A program made the translations under genes and the position numbers. Positions 33,939-61,099 of a stretch of DNA of 64,000 nt are shown piece by piece. The stretch comes from Hymenobacter caeli (lineage in GTDB: Bacteria > Bacteroidota > Bacteroidia > Cytophagales > Hymenobacteraceae), in the NCBI RefSeq assembly GCF_013294115.1, contig NZ_JABSNP010000001.1:124001-188000 (forward strand), given 5' to 3'. Below the pieces are notes generated by a model. That model was not told where the DNA came from, did no database searches, and was given only the letters and a program-made list of their open reading frames with translations. Position 1 is the first letter of the stretch, and each line of letters begins with the position of its first letter.

Positions 33939-34862
33939 ATGCGAAATATCATTGGTTTGCTCGCGCTGCTGCTGTTGGCCCTGGCCGGGCCCGCTGCCCG
34001 GGCCCAGGAGCTGAACTGCACCGTGTCGGTGTCGGTGGGCCCCGGCGTGGTCATCACCGACCAAAGCATCCGGGCCAACATGGAGCGCGACATCCAGGCC
34101 TTCCTCAACACGCGCGCCTGGACCAGCCAGACCTACCAGCCCCGCGAGCGCATCAACTGCCGGATGTTCGTCGTAATTACGGGGGCCACGTCGCCGGTAT
34201 ACCAGGCCACCATGCGGCTGATTTCAACCCGCCCCATCTACGGCACGGGCTACGAAACCAACGTCATCAGCATCGTCGACAAGAGCTTTAATTTTAACTA
34301 CCCGCCCACGAACTCGCTGGACTTTTCGCCCAACAGCTTCGTTTCCAACCTCTCGTCGCTGCTGGGCTTCTACGCCAACATCGTCATCGGGCTCGACCGC
34401 GACACGTTTGGCCGCCTCGGGGGCACCGCTAACTACGAACAGGCCCGCGTCATCACCCTGTATTCGGCTTCGCAGAGTGGCAGCGAGGCCGTCGACGAAA
34501 GCTGGAAAGACACCGGGGGCTCGCGCAGCCGCTACCAGCTGCTCAACAACCTCACCGACCCGCAGCTCCAGCCCTTCCGCGCCGGCCTCTACGCCTACTA
34601 CCGGCAGGGCATGGACATCTTTATTGAGAAGCCCGACGAAGCCCGCGTGGCCGTGCTGGGGGCCCTCACGGGCATTCAGCAGGTGGCCGCGCTGCGCGTG
34701 AGCGAGCCGATTTTCCGGTATTTTTTCGACGCCAAGGCGGATGAGATTGCCAACATCTTCCGCACCAGCCAGGACGCTAACCAGAAGCAGCAGCTGGTGA
34801 ACATGCTGACCAATATCGACGCTACTAACTCGGCGAAGTACCAGGCCATCCTCACCCGCTGA
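33939..34862 (+). CDS. porD: DUF4835 protein, PorD of type IX secretion
   Basis: A 307-residue protein from ATG 33939 with a signal peptide ending near ARAQ (residue 24). QELNCTVSVSVGPGVVITDQ begins the mature part, and IYGTGYETNVISIVDKSFNF and LSSLLGFYANIVIGLDRDTF are conserved DUF4835 blocks. The family includes PorD, reported as needed for type IX secretion; that link fits the T9SS-tailed protein at 12258-14444. It sits in the conserved coaB-porD-recN order. The spacer to recN is bounded by a 20-bp inverted repeat. Confidence 0.85.
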   Translation: MRNIIGLLALLLLALAGPAARAQELNCTVSVSVGPGVVITDQSIRANMERDIQAFLNTRAWTSQTYQPRERINCRMFVVITGATSPVYQATMRLISTRPIYGTGYETNVISIVDKSFNFNYPPTNSLDFSPNSFVSNLSSLLGFYANIVIGLDRDTFGRLGGTANYEQARVITLYSASQSGSEAVDESWKDTGGSRSRYQLLNNLTDPQLQPFRAGLYAYYRQGMDIFIEKPDEARVAVLGALTGIQQVAALRVSEPIFRYFFDAKADEIANIFRTSQDANQKQQLVNMLTNIDATNSAKYQAILTR

Positions 34863-35045
34863 AATCGCAGATTATGCGGATTCATTTGGGATTACGCTGA
34901 TTATTTTAGCATAAATTCTTTTTGTTGGCCTTCGTCGAAGGATACCAAATCAGTCGATTTAGAATTATTTATTAAAATAAAATCAGTAGCCGCGCCATTA
35001 AATTAATCTACGAAATCTGCGGTTAAATCCGCACAATCTGCGATT
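34863..35045. repeat. Inverted repeat spanning the whole porD-recN spacer
   Basis: Left arm 34863-34882 and right arm 35026-35045 are complementary at 19 of 20 positions. The left arm starts directly after the porD stop and the right arm ends 1 bp before the recN ATG. The 143 bases between are AT-rich. The same 20-mer precedes the second rhomboid gene at 24722-24741. Confidence 0.88.
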
Positions 35046-35046
35046 C

Positions 35047-36720
35047 ATGTTAGTCGATTTACGTATTCAGAATTACGCCCTGATTGAGTCGCTGGAGCTG
35101 CGGCCGTCGCCGCTGCTCAATATTATTACCGGCGAGACGGGCGCGGGCAAGTCCATTATGCTGGGGGCCATCGGGCTGCTGCTGGGCAACCGGGCCGACG
35201 GCAAGATGCTGTTTGACACGGCGCAGAAGTGCGTGATTGAGGGGCAGTTCGACATTGCCAGCTACCAGCTCCAGGACATTTTCGAGGCCGAGGACCTGGA
35301 CTACGACGCGCAGTGCATCCTGCGGCGCGAAATAAGCCCCACGGGCAAGTCGCGGGCGTTTGTGAACGACACGCCGGTGACGCTGGAGGCGCTGCGGAAA
35401 ATCGGGGCCAACCTGATGGACATCCACTCGCAGCACGACACGCTGCTGCTCGGCGACACGGTGTTTCAGCTCAACCTGCTCGACCTCTACGCCGGGCTGG
35501 TGCCGCAGCGCACCCACTACAGCAACGCCTTCCGGCAGTACCGCAAGCTGGAGGCCGAGCTGAAAACCCTGGAGGACCAGGCCACCCAGGCCAACGCGCT
35601 GCTCGACTACAACAGCTTTTTGCTGAACGAGCTGGAAGAGGCCAGCCTCGACGACGAGGACCAGGAGGCCCTGGAGCAGGAGGTGAAGCAGCTCGAGCAC
35701 GCCGAGGAAATCAAGTACAAGCTGAGCCAGGCCCTGCACGGGCTGCGCGACAGCGAAAGCTGCGCCACCGGCACCATGAAGGACGCCTCGATGCTGCTGG
35801 GCCAGGTGTCGGCCTACGCCGACAACTTCCGCGAGCTGCGCCAGCGCCTGGAAAGCTGCCTGATTGAGCTGCACGACATCGCCGACGAGGTGGAAACCGC
35901 CGAGCGCCGCACCGAGGGCGACCCTGCCCGCGCCGAGGAATTACAGGAGCGCCTGAACGTGCTCTACACCTTGCAGCGCAAGCACTCGGTGCGCGAGCTG
36001 GGGGCCCTGCTGGCCGTGCGCGACGAGCTGCGCCAGAAAGTGGGCAATGTGCTGAACCTGGACAAGCAAATCAGCAAGGTGCGCAAGGACGTGGAAGCCG
36101 CCCTGACCTCGGTAATCAAGCAGGCGGCCAAGCTCTCGGAGAGCCGGCGCAAGTCGTTCCCAAACTTTGAGCGCGAGCTGCGCGAACTGGTGGCCGACCT
36201 CGGGATGCCCAACGCCCGCATCGTGGTGGACCACCGCGCCGGGGCCCCCGCCGCCAGCGGCACCGACGTGGTGAACATCCTCTTCACGGCCAACAAGGGG
36301 GCCCAGCCCCAGACGCTGAGCAAGGCCGCGTCGGGCGGCGAGTTCTCGCGCCTGATGCTATGCGTGAAGTACATGCTGGCCGACAAGACGGCCCTGCCCA
36401 CGATAGTGTTCGACGAAATCGACACCGGCATCAGCGGGGAGATTGCCGTGAAGGTGGGCCGCATGATGCAGCAAATGGCCCGCAAGCACCAGCTGGTGGC
36501 CATTTCGCACCTGCCCCAGATGGCGGCGGCCGGCGACGCCCACTACTTCGTGTACAAGGAAGACCGCGCCGACCGCACCGTGAGCCGCATCCGCCAGCTC
36601 GGCGAAGACGACCGCATCCGGGAAATTGCCCACATGATTGCCGGGGCCAAGCCCAGCGAGAACGCCCTGCAAAGCGCCCGCGAGCTGCTGGCCCTGCGCG
36701 GCGAGGCCATGGCGGGGTAG
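35047..36720 (+). CDS. recN: DNA repair ATPase RecN
   Basis: A 557-residue SMC-like protein. The N-terminal ATPase half has Walker A GETGAGKSIMLGAIG; the C-terminal half has the signature LSKAASGGEFSRLMLC and Walker B TIVFDEIDTGISGE. Between them (about 150-360) is a Glu/Leu-rich coiled coil. Length and layout are standard. RecN holds broken ends together during recombinational double-strand-break repair in the cytosol. It is preceded by a spacer-length inverted repeat and followed by an 8-bp tandem repeat leader for fabI, so both flanks are unusual. Confidence 0.96.
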   Translation: MLVDLRIQNYALIESLELRPSPLLNIITGETGAGKSIMLGAIGLLLGNRADGKMLFDTAQKCVIEGQFDIASYQLQDIFEAEDLDYDAQCILRREISPTGKSRAFVNDTPVTLEALRKIGANLMDIHSQHDTLLLGDTVFQLNLLDLYAGLVPQRTHYSNAFRQYRKLEAELKTLEDQATQANALLDYNSFLLNELEEASLDDEDQEALEQEVKQLEHAEEIKYKLSQALHGLRDSESCATGTMKDASMLLGQVSAYADNFRELRQRLESCLIELHDIADEVETAERRTEGDPARAEELQERLNVLYTLQRKHSVRELGALLAVRDELRQKVGNVLNLDKQISKVRKDVEAALTSVIKQAAKLSESRRKSFPNFERELRELVADLGMPNARIVVDHRAGAPAASGTDVVNILFTANKGAQPQTLSKAASGGEFSRLMLCVKYMLADKTALPTIVFDEIDTGISGEIAVKVGRMMQQMARKHQLVAISHLPQMAAAGDAHYFVYKEDRADRTVSRIRQLGEDDRIREIAHMIAGAKPSENALQSARELLALRGEAMAG

Positions 36721-36819
36721 CAAGGGATGGGTGCGTGAAATAGTGAATGAATGAAAAGGTAAGTGGCTAACTTGCCGCCCTGAACCGAATGGCGAAAGAA
36801 AGGGCCGGGCTGCTTTTTC

Positions 36820-36851
36820 ATTCACCCATTCACCCATTCACCCATTCACCC
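36820..36851. repeat. 8-bp tandem repeat x4 abutting the fabI start codon
   Basis: ATTCACCC is repeated four times without interruption, leaving one C before the ATG at 36853. Near the start of the same spacer (36735-36757) GTGAATGAATGAAAA is complementary to the beginning of the array, so the leader can fold on itself. Confidence 0.92.
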
Positions 36852-36852
36852 C

Positions 36853-37674
36853 ATGTCCAACAACCTGCTCGCCGGCAAAGTCGGCATTATTTCCGGTGCT
36901 CTTGACGAGCGCTCCATTGCCTGGAAAGTGGCCCTCAAGGCCCACGAACAAGGGGCCCGCTTCGTGCTCACCAACGCGCCGCTGGCCATGCGCCTGGGCG
37001 AAATAAACGGCCTGGCGGAGCAGTGCGGGGCCACGATTATTCCGGCCGATGCTACGTCGATGGAAGACCTGGAGAAGCTGTTCAGCGGGGCCCAGGAGCA
37101 GCTCGGCGGCAAGCTCGATTTCGTGCTGCACAGCATCGGGATGAGCAACAACATCCGCAAGGGCAAGGCCTACGGCGACCTGAACTACGAGTGGTTCCAG
37201 AAGACGATTGACGTGTCGGCCATGTCGCTGCACAAGATGCTGGCCGTGGCCGAAAAGCAGGACGCCTTCAACGAGTGGGGCAGCGTGGTGGCCCTGAGCT
37301 ACATCGCCGCCCAGCGTGCCTTCCTCGACTACACCGACATGACGCAGGCCAAGGCCATGCTCGAAAGCATTGCCCGCAGCTACGGCCAGCGCCTGGGCAA
37401 GCTCAAGAAAGTGCGCGTGAATACCCTGTCGCAGTCGCCGACCAAAACCTCGGCCGGCACCGGCATCAGCGGCTTCGACGCCTTTTACGACTTCGCCGAC
37501 AAGATGTCGCCCCTGGGCAACGCCCCCGCCGAGGCCTGCGCCGACTTCTGCATCGCGCTGTTTTCGGACCTCACGCGCTACGTGACCATGCAAAACCTGA
37601 TGCACGACGGCGGCTTCAGCACCACCGGCATCTCGCAGGAAATGGCCGATTTGATGGTAAAAGCGAATTCGTAG
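36853..37674 (+). CDS. fabI: Enoyl-[acyl-carrier-protein] reductase (NADH)
   Basis: A 273-residue short-chain dehydrogenase that performs the last reduction of each fatty-acid elongation cycle. The modified cofactor loop is GIISGALDERSIAWKVA. The catalytic region SYIAAQRAFLDYTDMTQAKA holds the two Tyr and the Lys of the Y-x9-Y-x6-K pattern. QSPTKTSAGTGISGF is the substrate-loop region. Length is typical. The start codon is directly preceded by an 8-bp tandem repeat, which could make expression of this normally essential gene variable. A strong terminator follows. Confidence 0.96.
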   Translation: MSNNLLAGKVGIISGALDERSIAWKVALKAHEQGARFVLTNAPLAMRLGEINGLAEQCGATIIPADATSMEDLEKLFSGAQEQLGGKLDFVLHSIGMSNNIRKGKAYGDLNYEWFQKTIDVSAMSLHKMLAVAEKQDAFNEWGSVVALSYIAAQRAFLDYTDMTQAKAMLESIARSYGQRLGKLKKVRVNTLSQSPTKTSAGTGISGFDAFYDFADKMSPLGNAPAEACADFCIALFSDLTRYVTMQNLMHDGGFSTTGISQEMADLMVKANS

Positions 37675-37697
37675 CGGGTTAAATTATTTTGCTCAAG

Positions 37698-37728
37698 GCC
37701 CGGCCGCTTCCTGCGGCCGGGCTTTTTT
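37698..37728 (+). terminator. Intrinsic terminator of fabI
   Basis: GCCCGGCCGC (37698-37707) pairs with GCGGCCGGGC (37713-37722) around TTCCT and is followed by six T. Textbook form, 24 bp past the stop. Confidence 0.93.
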
Positions 37729-38024
37729 GTGCCCACCGGAGCCGGCCGGCACCCTGCGTGCCCCGTGCGCCGCCGGGCGCTTGCAGAAGGCCGTTGGCCG
37801 AACAAACGCTGCGCTTTAGCGAAAATGTGCATCGGGTGAAGGCTTCGTGCGCAACTATTGTAAGTGCATAGGGATGAGAAAGCTAAGTATTGTGCTTAGC
37901 TAAGAAACAATGTTTTTCTTCCTCTTTATCCTGAATTCGGATAAACTGCTTTTGGTGGTCCCGGACGACGGCCTGGCTTAAATTCCTTGTTTTTTTATTC
38001 TCATCCTTTTTTCACTTTACCAGC
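37729..38024. other. Regulatory spacer upstream of the PF03640-like lipoprotein
   Basis: AT-richer than average. It holds two dyads: AGCTAAG/CTTAGCT at 37881-37901 and the near-palindrome TTATCC-TGAATTC-GGATAA at 37926-37944. Pyrimidine-rich sequence leads to the ATG at 38025. The dyads look like repressor or activator sites; no gene was recognised. Confidence 0.5.
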
Positions 38025-38882
38025 ATGACCACAACTATACCATTCGCTTTTCTTAAACGCTGGCCGGCCGTAGCGGCGGCCAGCTTCTTGCTGGCTGCCG
38101 CGCTCGGTAGCTGCAAAAAGAATGAGGAGAACACCACGCCGCCCACCGTTATGCTGACCAGCAACGCCGCGCTGGGGTCTTTTCTGACCGATGGGCGGAA
38201 CAACACGCTTTACTACTACACGCCGGACGTCATCGGCACCAACGCCTGCACCGGCGGCTGTGCCGACGAGTGGCCGATCTTTTTTGCGGCCTCTGTGCAA
38301 GTGGGCCCCGGTCTGAACGCCGCCGACTTCACCACCGGGCGCACGGCCAGCGGCCGCAACCAAACGTTCTACAAGGGCTGGCCGCTGTATTATTTTGCCC
38401 CCGAAGTAAAGGGCGTCAACGTGCGCGAAGAGCCGGGCCAGGTGCTCGGCGAAGGCGACGACGACCAGTGGTACGTGGCCCGGCCCGATTACACGGCCAT
38501 GGTGGCCGAGAATACCGTGACGGATAAGAGCACGAGCAAGGCCAGCATCGAACGGTATTTGATCGACCCGCAGGGGCGCACGCTTTACACCTACGGCAAA
38601 GACAAGCGCCTGCCGGCCTCGCAAACCACCAATTGCCAGGGCGGCTGCGTCGAGGCCCGGCCGGTGTTCTACAGTGCCACCATAACGGTGCCTTCGGCCT
38701 TGAAGAGCAGCGATTTCGGCACCATCACGCGCACCGACGGCCCCAACGGCAGCAAGCGGCTGCAAACCACCTACAAAGGCAACCCGCTCTACTACTACAC
38801 GCCCGACAACGCGGTGCGCGGCAAAGCAGAAGGCAACGGCTACACCGATGGCACCGACCAGTGGATAGTGGCCGCCCCGTGA
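38025..38882 (+). CDS. Lipoprotein with PF03640-type secreted repeats
   Basis: A 285-residue lipoprotein; the lipobox LGSC puts the lipidated Cys at 30. The mature part holds two copies of a domain. The first covers about residues 45-150 (NNTLYYYTPD, then GGCADEWPIFF and GWPLYYFAPE). The second covers about 175-285 (GRTLYTYGKD, then GGCVEARPVFY and GNPLYYYTPD). This matches the 'secreted repeat of unknown function' lipoprotein family. Each copy has a Cys pair (NACTGGC, NCQGGC) that may form a disulfide or bind metal. It stands alone, with dyads upstream and a terminator downstream, so it is probably regulated by itself. Confidence 0.82.
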   Translation: MTTTIPFAFLKRWPAVAAASFLLAAALGSCKKNEENTTPPTVMLTSNAALGSFLTDGRNNTLYYYTPDVIGTNACTGGCADEWPIFFAASVQVGPGLNAADFTTGRTASGRNQTFYKGWPLYYFAPEVKGVNVREEPGQVLGEGDDDQWYVARPDYTAMVAENTVTDKSTSKASIERYLIDPQGRTLYTYGKDKRLPASQTTNCQGGCVEARPVFYSATITVPSALKSSDFGTITRTDGPNGSKRLQTTYKGNPLYYYTPDNAVRGKAEGNGYTDGTDQWIVAAP

Positions 38883-38994: not shown

Positions 38995-40005
38995 CTACGG
39001 CGTAGCACGCGGGCCGTGCCAGCGGGGGGCGTCCATCACCAGGGTTACGAGTAAGGCGTGGGGCAGCGTGACGATGGAGGCCACCACCAGCGCCAGGCTG
39101 AACCAGGCGGCCCCGTTGGGCAGGTGGGGGGCCAGCAGGCGGCCCAGCAGCAGCAGCGCCGCGCAGCTGAGCAGCAGCAGCGGGGCCGCCCGGCGCAGAA
39201 AAAACCCCAGCTGCGGCCACAGGGCTGGCCCGGTGCGCGGGCTGCCCGGTGCCGGGGCGTACCCCAACCAGCTGGTTAGGCGCAGCACGTGCTGCAAGCT
39301 GTGCCAGAACACAAAATACACGCCCACCGACAGCTGCGGGGGCAGCGCCAGCAGCAAGCCCACCAGCACCGCCACCTCGAACACTTCGGTGCGCAGCAGG
39401 GCCCACTGGTGCCGGTAGGCGTAGCAGGCCCACAGCGCCAGGTGGCCGCCCACCACCAGCAGGCCCAGGCCGCCCGCCCCCGCGGCAAACGTGGCCCCGG
39501 CCACGGCGGGAGCCCCGGCAAAGGCCAACAGCCCGTTCACGATGCCAGCCGTGGCGGTGGGCCACCACCAAGCCGGCACCGCAAAAAGGAGCAGGCCCCG
39601 CAACAAGCTGTGCGTTAGCCACAACACCGTAGATGCCCGGGGGCCGTCCAGCGTGTCAGCCGAACCCCAGTGCCACACCGTGAGCAGGAAAAAGCCCGCT
39701 ACCGTTGCCACCGGCCAGCCCCACCACAGGGCCCCCACCAGGCCCGCCAGCCCCAGGTAGCCGGCCAGAAACACCAGCCAGTAGCGCCAGCCGCCGGCGC
39801 GGGGCTGGCCGGCGGGCACCACCAATTGGTCGCAGGCCCCGTGGGCCACGCCCAGCACCACCATGCCCACGGCCAGCGGTGGCCCCAGCAGCGCCCACGC
39901 CGCGCCCGGAAAGGCCGCGCCCACGCCGGCCAGCGTCAGCACGGCCGCGTAGGAGTAGCGCCGCTGGGGCCAATCGGAGGCAGAGGAAGGGTCGGGGGCA
40001 GGCAT
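38995..40005 (-). CDS. blh: Brp/Blh family beta-carotene 15,15'-dioxygenase
   Basis: A 336-residue membrane enzyme from ATG 40003-40005; upstream in-frame codons lie in the hairpin region. It has about nine to ten hydrophobic helices. Iron-binding histidines are seen in GVAHGACDQ, TVWHWGSAD and FWHSLQHVLR, the conserved set of the family. It cleaves beta-carotene into two retinals in the membrane. The rhodopsin gene directly upstream on the same strand would use that retinal, so the two form a phototrophy cassette. A hairpin between them may tune Blh output. Carotenoid synthesis genes are not in the window. Confidence 0.93.
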   Translation of the reverse strand: MPAPDPSSASDWPQRRYSYAAVLTLAGVGAAFPGAAWALLGPPLAVGMVVLGVAHGACDQLVVPAGQPRAGGWRYWLVFLAGYLGLAGLVGALWWGWPVATVAGFFLLTVWHWGSADTLDGPRASTVLWLTHSLLRGLLLFAVPAWWWPTATAGIVNGLLAFAGAPAVAGATFAAGAGGLGLLVVGGHLALWACYAYRHQWALLRTEVFEVAVLVGLLLALPPQLSVGVYFVFWHSLQHVLRLTSWLGYAPAPGSPRTGPALWPQLGFFLRRAAPLLLLSCAALLLLGRLLAPHLPNGAAWFSLALVVASIVTLPHALLVTLVMDAPRWHGPRATP

Positions 40006-40027
40006 GGTAAAACGGTTAGAAGCCAAA

Positions 40028-40067
40028 ACAGGCCGTTGCCCGGCAGAAAAGCGGAGCAACGGCCTGT
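40028..40067 (-). terminator. Hairpin between rhodopsin and blh (possible attenuator)
   Basis: ACAGGCCGTTGC (40028-40039) and GCAACGGCCTGT (40056-40067) pair perfectly. In the minus-strand transcript the stem ends in TTTT. It lies 31 bp after the rhodopsin stop and 22 bp before the blh start, so partial termination would give more rhodopsin than Blh. Confidence 0.6.
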
Positions 40068-40098
40068 CGAACGGGGCCGCGTAGGAGCGGCCGGCAAT

Positions 40099-40893
40099 TT
40101 AGGCCATAACCGTTTCTTTGGCCCCGGCCCCCACGCCTTGCTGCGGGTGGGCCTGTACCACCGACTCGCTACGGGCAATGCTGTACACGACCAGGCCAAA
40201 ACCGATTTTGTTGACGGCGTCGCCGAGGTTGTATATCAAGTCGAGGCTGCTCGTCTTTAACAAGTTGAGGCCGTCGGGGCCGAGTAAGCCGCCGGGCATA
40301 GCCATGTAGCCGATGGGGTAAATGGCCCAGCCGACGAAGATGAACCACGACAAGTAGCGCACCCCTTTCTGCACGGCGCGCGAATCGGACTTGGCCGCCA
40401 ACTGCGCAATCTCACCGTACCAGGCCGAGTACAGGATGTAGAGGTAGCCCAGCGTGGACAGTGCTCCCCACAGGTTCGAGTGAAACTTGGAGCCGTCGGT
40501 GAAGGCTTCGCCGATGTAGCCGCACACGAGCATGAACACCGCCGCGATGACCAGCTTCCAAAGCAGGCCAATTTTGGCCCCCGCGGAGCGCACCAGCAGG
40601 TAAAACTCGATGACCATCAGCGGCACGGTCAGCGTCCAGTCGATGTAGCGCAGGGCCACGGGCGTCGAGTGGGTGCTGATGTAGTAGTCGCGCATGTAGT
40701 AGTAGTGCACGGCCGCGATGCCGGTAATCATGCCCGAAATCAGAAGCGAGGTTTTCCACTTATCGGCCACAGTGCTGCGCTCGAAAAGAAAAAATACCGA
40801 CGCGGCCGCCATGGCCATGTAACCCGTAAAAAACGTGAAGGCAACCGGGTCGTCAACCGGAATTTTCATGACATCGAGGAGGATGGTCTGCAT
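40099..40893 (-). CDS. Proton-pumping rhodopsin (xanthorhodopsin/proteorhodopsin type)
   Basis: A 264-residue seven-helix protein from ATG 40891-40893. The open frame reaches 40959, but the extra residues come from AT-rich leader sequence. The Schiff-base lysine is Lys229 in DAVNKIGFG with Asp225 one turn earlier. Helix C reads RYIDWTLTVPLMVIEF: Asp85 (acceptor), Thr89 and Glu96 (donor) form the DTE pattern of outward proton pumps. Met93 takes the colour-tuning place, which suggests green absorption. His63 in AVHYYYMRDYY matches the histidine that pairs with the acceptor in proteorhodopsin. It turns light into a proton gradient. Confidence 0.94.
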   Translation of the reverse strand: MQTILLDVMKIPVDDPVAFTFFTGYMAMAAASVFFLFERSTVADKWKTSLLISGMITGIAAVHYYYMRDYYISTHSTPVALRYIDWTLTVPLMVIEFYLLVRSAGAKIGLLWKLVIAAVFMLVCGYIGEAFTDGSKFHSNLWGALSTLGYLYILYSAWYGEIAQLAAKSDSRAVQKGVRYLSWFIFVGWAIYPIGYMAMPGGLLGPDGLNLLKTSSLDLIYNLGDAVNKIGFGLVVYSIARSESVVQAHPQQGVGAGAKETVMA

Positions 40894-45441: not shown

Positions 45442-45447
45442 GTTTTT

Positions 45448-45538
45448 AAGCTATTAGCCATTAGCTGTTAGCTAATAGCTTTGTAAAAAGCCGGCACAAC
45501 GGAGCTAACAGCTAACAGCTATCAGCTAACGGCTATTA
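45448..45538. repeat. Inverted TTAGCT stutter repeats filling the adaptor-permease gap
   Basis: 45448-45481 and 45503-45538 both consist of near-repeats of the heptamers GTTAGCT/AGCTAAC and are inverted with respect to each other, around a GC-rich centre. One block reaches the stop codon of the adaptor gene (45536-45538) and the other ends 6 bp before the permease ATG. Confidence 0.85.
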
Positions 45539-60941: not shown

Positions 60942-60947
60942 TACGCC

Positions 60948-61075
60948 GCCTCACCCCCCGGCCCCCTCTCCGGGGGAGAGGGGGAGTCAAATAACCCGAT
61001 AAAAAGTTAATTAAACTCAGCAACCCAGACGTCTGTCTCCCCCTCTCCCCCGGAGAGGGGGCCGGGGGGTGAGGC
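60948..61075. repeat. 39-bp perfect inverted repeat between leuC and leuD
   Basis: Arms 60948-60986 and 61037-61075 are exact reverse complements over 39 bases with a 50-base AT-rich loop. Each arm also holds its own CCCCCTCTCC/GGAGAGGGGG-type palindrome. It starts 6 bp after the leuC stop and ends 24 bp before leuD. Confidence 0.95.
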
Positions 61076-61099
61076 GCACCGCTGAACGAGCTAGTTAAA

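Follow-up and report, generated by a model that had tools for sequence, protein, structure and literature searches.

Mirror-image tandem-repeat arms in the recN–fabI gap and in other intergenic gaps of Hymenobacter

Introduction

Arrays of the heptamer TAACTGA are known from Beggiatoaceae, Cyanobacteria, and some Bacteroidetes (MacGregor 2015, PMC4679880). As described there, some precede presumably essential genes, and one Flexibacter set stands in reverse orientation directly past a stop codon (PMC4679880). In several respects these arrays are like the arms in front of fabI that we analyze here in Hymenobacter: they consist of tandem units (7 nt) in gaps, are dispersed, and are spread unevenly between lineages, and their largest group ends 1 nt before a start codon (PMC4679880), as the fabI array does. 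However, the TAACTGA arrays are described as copies of a single heptamer in direct orientation, apart from one inverted case in the main genome (PMC4679880), whereas the Hymenobacter arms are paired and inverted, are built from many unit types, and turn over fast. Nor is the unit TAACTGA or a near variant of it; at fabI it is the octamer ATTCACCC, and elsewhere other 7–8-mers are found.

Inverted repeats of other kinds are also informative for comparison. Those attributed to template switching have arms matched by the copying of one from the other, as we propose for Hymenobacter, and have been described from yeast genes, where the arms are short, and from the stems of RNA genes (PMC8604942, PMC8794818). 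The Hymenobacter arms differ from these in being tandem 7–8-nt arrays, of a type shared across the genome, that flank a core. The coding palindromes of nematomorphs are similar in that a single lineage has many long, perfect inverted repeats, but they lie in mitochondrial coding sequence (PMC6649704), and the Hymenobacter arms are gap spacers. REP and REPIN sequences are likewise dispersed extragenic palindromes (PMC3733652, PMC3116915), and one of their ends is marked by a GTAG or CGTC tag (PMC3733652); the Hymenobacter arms, in contrast, show no association with a Y1 transposase at 20 Y1_Tnp loci and form tandem arrays round unrelated interiors. Among the literature matches listed, which include few subscription-journal papers and exclude preprints, none describes paired arms in Hymenobacter.

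Anatomy of the recN–fabI gap

The window, by which we mean the whole stretch of DNA analyzed, comprises 64,000 nucleotides of Hymenobacter caeli. In it, recN (35047–36720, + strand; TIGR00634, 446.8 bits, above the cut-off) is followed by fabI (36853–37674, + strand), which encodes an enoyl-ACP reductase (PF13561, 2e-60); the best NCBIfam models for the product are FabI, yet all fall under the curated cut-offs. Between the two genes lies a gap of 132 bp with an inverted repeat (36721–36852, + strand), the left edge of which is the recN stop codon. An 8-bp repeat touching the fabI ATG had been proposed from the sequence alone, and four units of ATTCACCC do stand head to tail at 36820–36851, followed by a C at 36852 and the ATG at 36853. 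Tandem Repeats Finder reports the array at 36819–36851 (period 8, 4.1 copies, 100% matches, score 66). When up to three mismatches to a pair of units are allowed, the window has four matches, three of them overlapping within the fabI array, against 0.34 expected, and none of 100 shuffles got to four. The same reading had placed a complement of the unit at about 36735–36757, and GTGAATGAATGAAAA is found inside this interval, at 36743–36757.

Between the recN stop and the fabI ATG, the gap consists in turn of a GTGAAT arm, a core that resembles a promoter, and an ATTCAC arm. The 5' arm, TGCGTGAAATAGTGAATGAA, lies at 36732–36751 (+ strand; inverted-repeat score 20), and the plain complement GTGAATGAATGAAAA runs on to 36757. 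The loop or core between the arms (36758–36813, + strand) holds a promoter-like box, TAACTTG, at 36768–36774, a motif that was defined after the sequences were seen. The 3' arm is the fourfold ATTCACCC array itself (36820–36851, + strand), with its best-paired part at 36817–36836. An inverted repeat thus fills the gap, and the octamer array at fabI, one half of a mirror-image pair of spacers, forms its 3' arm.

Within the window's own recN–fabI gap the pairing of the arms is weak, with 16 of 20 positions complementary in the best block. The resulting score of 20 is above all shuffles (best 16 in 12 shuffles and best 18 in 30) and under the threshold of 26 that we used for unbiased gap samples. 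The RNA fold of 36721–36900 has −60.2 kcal/mol (z −2.2), and six of 200 shuffles were equally good. After the 3' arm comes CATG, with no T run of the kind that an intrinsic terminator has, and a search of 34800–38100 against Rfam gave no match up to E 1.

The gap across Hymenobacter

FabI relatives are present in 101 of 101 genomes of the genus. From these 101 loci we kept 96, dropping five without a recN end, and then 92, dropping four with a gap below 60 or above 400 bases. An inverted repeat scored above all 30 shuffles in 75 of the 92 gaps, a recurrence across the genus that bears out the complementarity pointed out in the sequence-only reading. Among the 75 repeats, 45 have a loop of at least 25 bases and end no more than 30 bases from the ATG, 29 end further upstream, and one does neither. 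Several kinds of arm occur (GTGA plus four bases, GGTTTTT, GGAGGGTA, TTAGCTTGCC, and GTCATGCTGAGCG-type palindromes), with a period of 8 (0.65–0.70, against 0.36 in shuffled sequence) and a composition of 4% C in the 5' arm and 3% G in the 3' arm. Named species with such arms in the fabI gap are H. nivis, H. rigui, H. perfusus, H. cavernae, H. citatus, and H. armeniacus. The closest FabI relative (95%) has no significant repeat in its recN–fabI gap, and two Pontibacter records, viewed by eye and unscored, have no such arms in theirs.

The two ends of a gap match each other better than they match the ends of other gaps. Comparing the first and last 45 nt in 86 gaps unselected for a repeat, we find a score of 24.3 for own ends against 12.9 for foreign ends, and the highest value among 5000 permutations was 15.5, which again backs that complementarity. 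The corresponding values in 49 gaps picked for a repeat, a selection-biased sample, are 30.2 and 15.0. The own partner was best or tied in only 15 of the 86 gaps because related species have arms in common.

Arm sequence turns over rapidly. A quick tree built from the coding DNA on either side puts at least 28 changes of arm type among the 75 repeat-bearing rows; across all 92 rows there were 42 changes when "no repeat" was counted as a state, and at least 16 gains or losses of the repeat itself. These counts are rough because the arm-type labels are regular expressions written after the sequences had been seen, and because many branches are weak (28 of 93 inner tree branches are open). The core is retained amid this turnover: of the 41 species whose repeat spans the gap, 39 have a promoter-like box in the loop. 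In the pair L076/L125 the loop is 0.79 alike and the arms 0.48 and 0.88, and in the pair L052/L055 the loop is 0.85 alike and the arms 0.55 and 0.67, so that in both the loop is kept better than the 5' arm. The loop of L077 resembles that of L061 and is accompanied by other arms, with a repeat in L077 that is not significant (score 18, best shuffle 18). We use neither L077 nor H. coccineus as an example.

These comparisons bear on the idea, put forward in the sequence-only reading, that the array is a slippage-driven contingency switch for FabI whose unit number varies and alters expression. Four perfect units immediately ahead of a start codon would suit such a switch. However, counted from the inner C through the last base ahead of the ATG, the array is exactly 34 nt long in L052, L054, L055, and L056, and the switch is unsupported because this length is the same in all four species sharing the arm type. 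Among these close relatives we see constant array length, with units that differ in sequence, in place of the expected variation in copy number. Other species have unrelated arms at the same recN–fabI position, and the array belongs to a genome-wide family that is not bound to fabI. The gene is usually essential, which we also count against a switch, and we regard this explanation as very improbable.

A promoter-like box between inverted repeats also calls to mind an inverton, that is, an invertible promoter. At the species level, however, narrow boxes (chosen post hoc) face fabI in 77 of 92 gaps and the opposite way in two, and a looser motif gives 71 forward and 25 reverse occurrences among the 92 gaps. 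The arms are not a single fixed recombination site either, and we find an inverton scarcely credible.

Dispersal of the arms

The octamer family is not private to fabI. In its own genome we find 93 overlapping two-unit octamer matches with up to two mismatches, and none with the reversed control; for GGTTTTTGGTTTTTGG, a reversed control of this kind is void because the sequence reads identically backwards. Examination of 34 regions gave 26 two-armed clusters, in all 26 of which the GTGAAT arm precedes the ATTCAC arm, and nine single-armed ones. By codon-usage gene calls, 20 of the settings are co-directional gaps, five convergent, and five divergent (two of these five with weak calls), four are inside called genes, and one is unresolved. 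Genes outside the window were called with a codon-usage script, with a Pfam check for L011, L014, L021, L032, and L040. Divergent gaps with arms are confirmed by Pfam on both sides at L014 (where the arms are 21/21 complementary), L021, and L032; at L040 one protein is without a Pfam family.

Pairing within loci of this genome is real but modest. With fixed windows, own arms scored 38.2 against 34.2 for others (n = 25), and four of 5000 permutations were as high. An earlier version of this test with 21 loci was biased, as the arms had been chosen for pairing, and the unselected rerun gave the smaller effect reported here.

Many copies per genome, and families that are uneven among species, are what the insertion of a mobile inverted-repeat element (MITE, REP, or REPIN) into the gap would produce. 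The interiors argue otherwise: of 136 pairs among the 17 loops of at least 20 nt, three are similar, all among L030, L031, and L033, which contain a nested palindrome. One contiguous insertion does not fit, because the interiors are otherwise unrelated and the fabI interior contains the promoter-like box of the gene. In addition, none of 20 Y1_Tnp loci has any of three exact arm motifs within about 1.5 kb, which gives no link to RAYT transposases, and Y1_Tnp matches number two to three in 12 of 13 genomes, whether rich or poor in arms, with none in G059. A mobile element is therefore improbable in our judgment.

The vocabulary of units is common to many loci in one genome and missing from other genomes. 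We observed ATTCACTC arrays outside the genus as well, in G040 (from another family of the order), where several hits are close inverted pairs, and only a single array was seen at L042. Longer runs of GGTGAAATGGTGAGAT and GGTTTTT occur at G016:C41:5324-5459 and G001:C49:178005-178076, on one strand among the matches listed, and such runs are possible seeds of arm families.

Three more gaps in the window carry paired arms. In the porD–recN gap, a second gap-spanning inverted repeat (score 37, against 25 for the best of 30 shuffles) has its 5' arm at 34863–34908 (+ strand), beginning at the first base past the stop, and its 3' arm at 34999–35045 (+ strand), one base ahead of the recN ATG. The HlyD–AcrB gap (45442–45535), within an apparent operon on the − strand with genes assigned by Pfam, has arms of AGCT-type heptamers at 45455–45480 and 45510–45535 (score 32, best shuffle 21 and 18 in two runs), the latter abutting the HlyD-type gene at its stop codon. 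A 43-nt arm at 60947–60989 (+ strand; score 81, best shuffle 23), between two aconitase-family genes (leuC/leuD-like), has its partner at 61034–61076 (+ strand), 23 nt ahead of the second gene. These CCTCACCCCCCGGCCCC-type arms are 98% matched, and their gap (60942–61099) is interior to an apparent operon, again with genes assigned by Pfam.

Two side observations in the window belong here. Perfect 35-nt palindrome arms beginning with CGTCATGCCGAGCGCAGCCGAGG occur at 2089–2291 and represent a second dispersed palindrome family; palindromes similar to it are those nested in the GTGAAT loops at L030, L031, and L033. At 38995–40893 (− strand), a bacteriorhodopsin-like gene lies beside a gene for a beta-carotene 15,15'-dioxygenase (both by Pfam), perhaps a light-driven pump together with its retinal-making enzyme.

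Gap orientation and specificity

For an unbiased sample we used parts of three genomes (244, 400, and 400 kb) with 457 gaps of 40 to 350 bases. Arms in these gaps have a period of 7 (0.40–0.42, against 0.27 in shuffled sequence). Gap-spanning repeats were found in 22 of 300 co-directional, 11 of 79 convergent, and 1 of 78 divergent gaps (Fisher p = 0.017, divergent against the rest), and repeats with longer loops in 54 of 300, 19 of 79, and 9 of 78, respectively (p = 0.14). The orientation pattern fits a mere lower tolerance of arms in 5' leaders too: such a model expects 10.5 longer-loop repeats in divergent gaps against 9 seen, and 3.0 gap-spanning ones against 1. In co-directional gaps, left arms abut upstream stops in 23 of 54 cases (13.5 expected under uniform placement, p 0.0002), right arms abut starts in 8 of 54, below the 13.5 expected by chance, and both ends jointly do so as uniform placement predicts.

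The contents of the loops vary with the gap. Promoter-like boxes lie in 4 of 22 gap-spanning co-directional loops of the unbiased sample, against 2.0 expected, with two in reverse; the promoter-in-loop layout is therefore established for fabI and not generally. In convergent gaps, 4 of 11 gap-spanning loops hold a terminator-like hairpin by eye, the outer arms enclosing it at L158:7106, L252:14121, L254:12773, and L276:15389.

Individual gaps differ strongly in how often they carry the repeat. It is present in 75 of 92 fabI gaps, 23 of 28 porD–recN gaps, 10 of 29 bamD–rpoZ gaps, and 5 of 28 gaps before bamD, and at a score of at least 26 in 64 of 92, 21 of 28, 7 of 29, and 1 of 28, respectively; for the rpoZ, bamD, and recN gaps we used the 30 best-matching of 61 genomes per query, of which 29, 28, and 28 were usable. 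This gap specificity hints at selection. Some gaps are held to the arm form, or to tolerate arms, much more than others, and here lies the best evidence for selection.

The specificity, with its high persistence in the fabI and recN gaps, would be welcome to an explanation at the RNA level, in which transcripts from recN fold the arms and thereby hide or cleave the fabI start, only RNA begun at the loop promoter is translated, and RNA-level selection keeps the arms as an insulator against read-through. Folding in silico agrees with it: the mean unpaired probability of the start region is 0.33 in read-through RNA and 0.76 in loop-started RNA, and is lower in the former in 41 of 41 species. It is 0.46 with a foreign 5' arm (own arm lower in 35 of 41) and 0.40 with a shuffled one (own lower in 31 of 41). 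The rarity of gap-spanning repeats in divergent gaps is also in its favor, but longer-loop repeats are not significantly rarer there, and lower tolerance in 5' leaders fits the orientation pattern too. Moreover, paired arms are present in the Pfam-confirmed divergent gaps, some convergent loops already hold terminator-like hairpins, and an insulator would be unwelcome between the subunit genes of an operon, yet arms occur within apparent operons, in the HlyD–AcrB and aconitase-family gaps. A test for RNA selection through the bias of G.U over A.C mismatches gave 127 against 124 in five co-directional classes pooled, with some short-loop repeats among them; the counts are 39 against 35 in the upstream hairpins of fabI, outside this pool, and 28 against 24 in terminator-like short-loop hairpins. 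The test is without power because short-loop hairpins show no bias either. Taking both sides together, we consider insulation possible but unlikely.

Origin of the arms

The account that we favor, with modest confidence, is that a DNA-level process rewrites spacers as matched arms around constrained cores, and a slippage switch has no part in it. We favor a process in DNA because the arms surround differing cores and occur in divergent gaps and in gaps of apparent operons as well. If both promoters of a divergent gap lie in the loop, no single RNA would hold both arms. Reverse-complementary arrays of 7–8-nt units would come to occupy the two spacers that flank a constrained core. The most likely means is template switching during replication, by which a reverse-complemented copy of one spacer would replace the other. 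Purifying selection, acting on the coding sequence and on the core, would limit this rewriting to the spacers. In co-directional gaps, the folding of arms in RNA reading through from recN, with the predicted hiding of the fabI start, would be a by-product, and RNA begun within the loop is predicted in silico to keep the start open.

The anatomy of the repeat, its dispersal, its turnover round a retained core, and its occurrence in co-directional, convergent, and divergent gaps are direct observations; template switching as the mechanism, and the neutrality of the arms, are what we infer from them. In other systems, template switching is reported to homogenize arms and to be able to create a hairpin in a single event (PMC8604942, PMC8794818). 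Among ten aligned pairs viewed by eye we could reconstruct no clean single switch event, the changes being mostly single and unmatched. In L110/L128 one arm has, by eye, a cluster of changes that agree with the opposite arm, with either direction of change possible. Against template switching, it leaves unexplained the vocabulary of units common to many loci within a genome.

Implications

If arms are written in DNA, covariation in gap hairpins would be a product of mutation and by itself no proof of RNA function. Paired arms that change together are usually read as selected RNA structure, and the same sign appears here round a promoter-like core, round terminator-like hairpins, and also in divergent gaps, a setting in which it is difficult to argue for pairing in RNA. 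The hairpins in gaps and the repeats at start codons throughout the phylum would then need a mutational null model before regulatory claims are made. Should selection be the cause, a single gap whose arm type was replaced at least 28 times would amount to a natural experiment in keeping structure without sequence. The more than 100 genomes of the genus allow this to be tested. Tentatively, and with more doubt than we attach to arm writing as such, we suggest that Hymenobacter may write matched 7–8-nt arms genome-wide round its promoters and terminators in a lineage-specific vocabulary, through unusually frequent template switching or a dedicated arm-copying enzyme.
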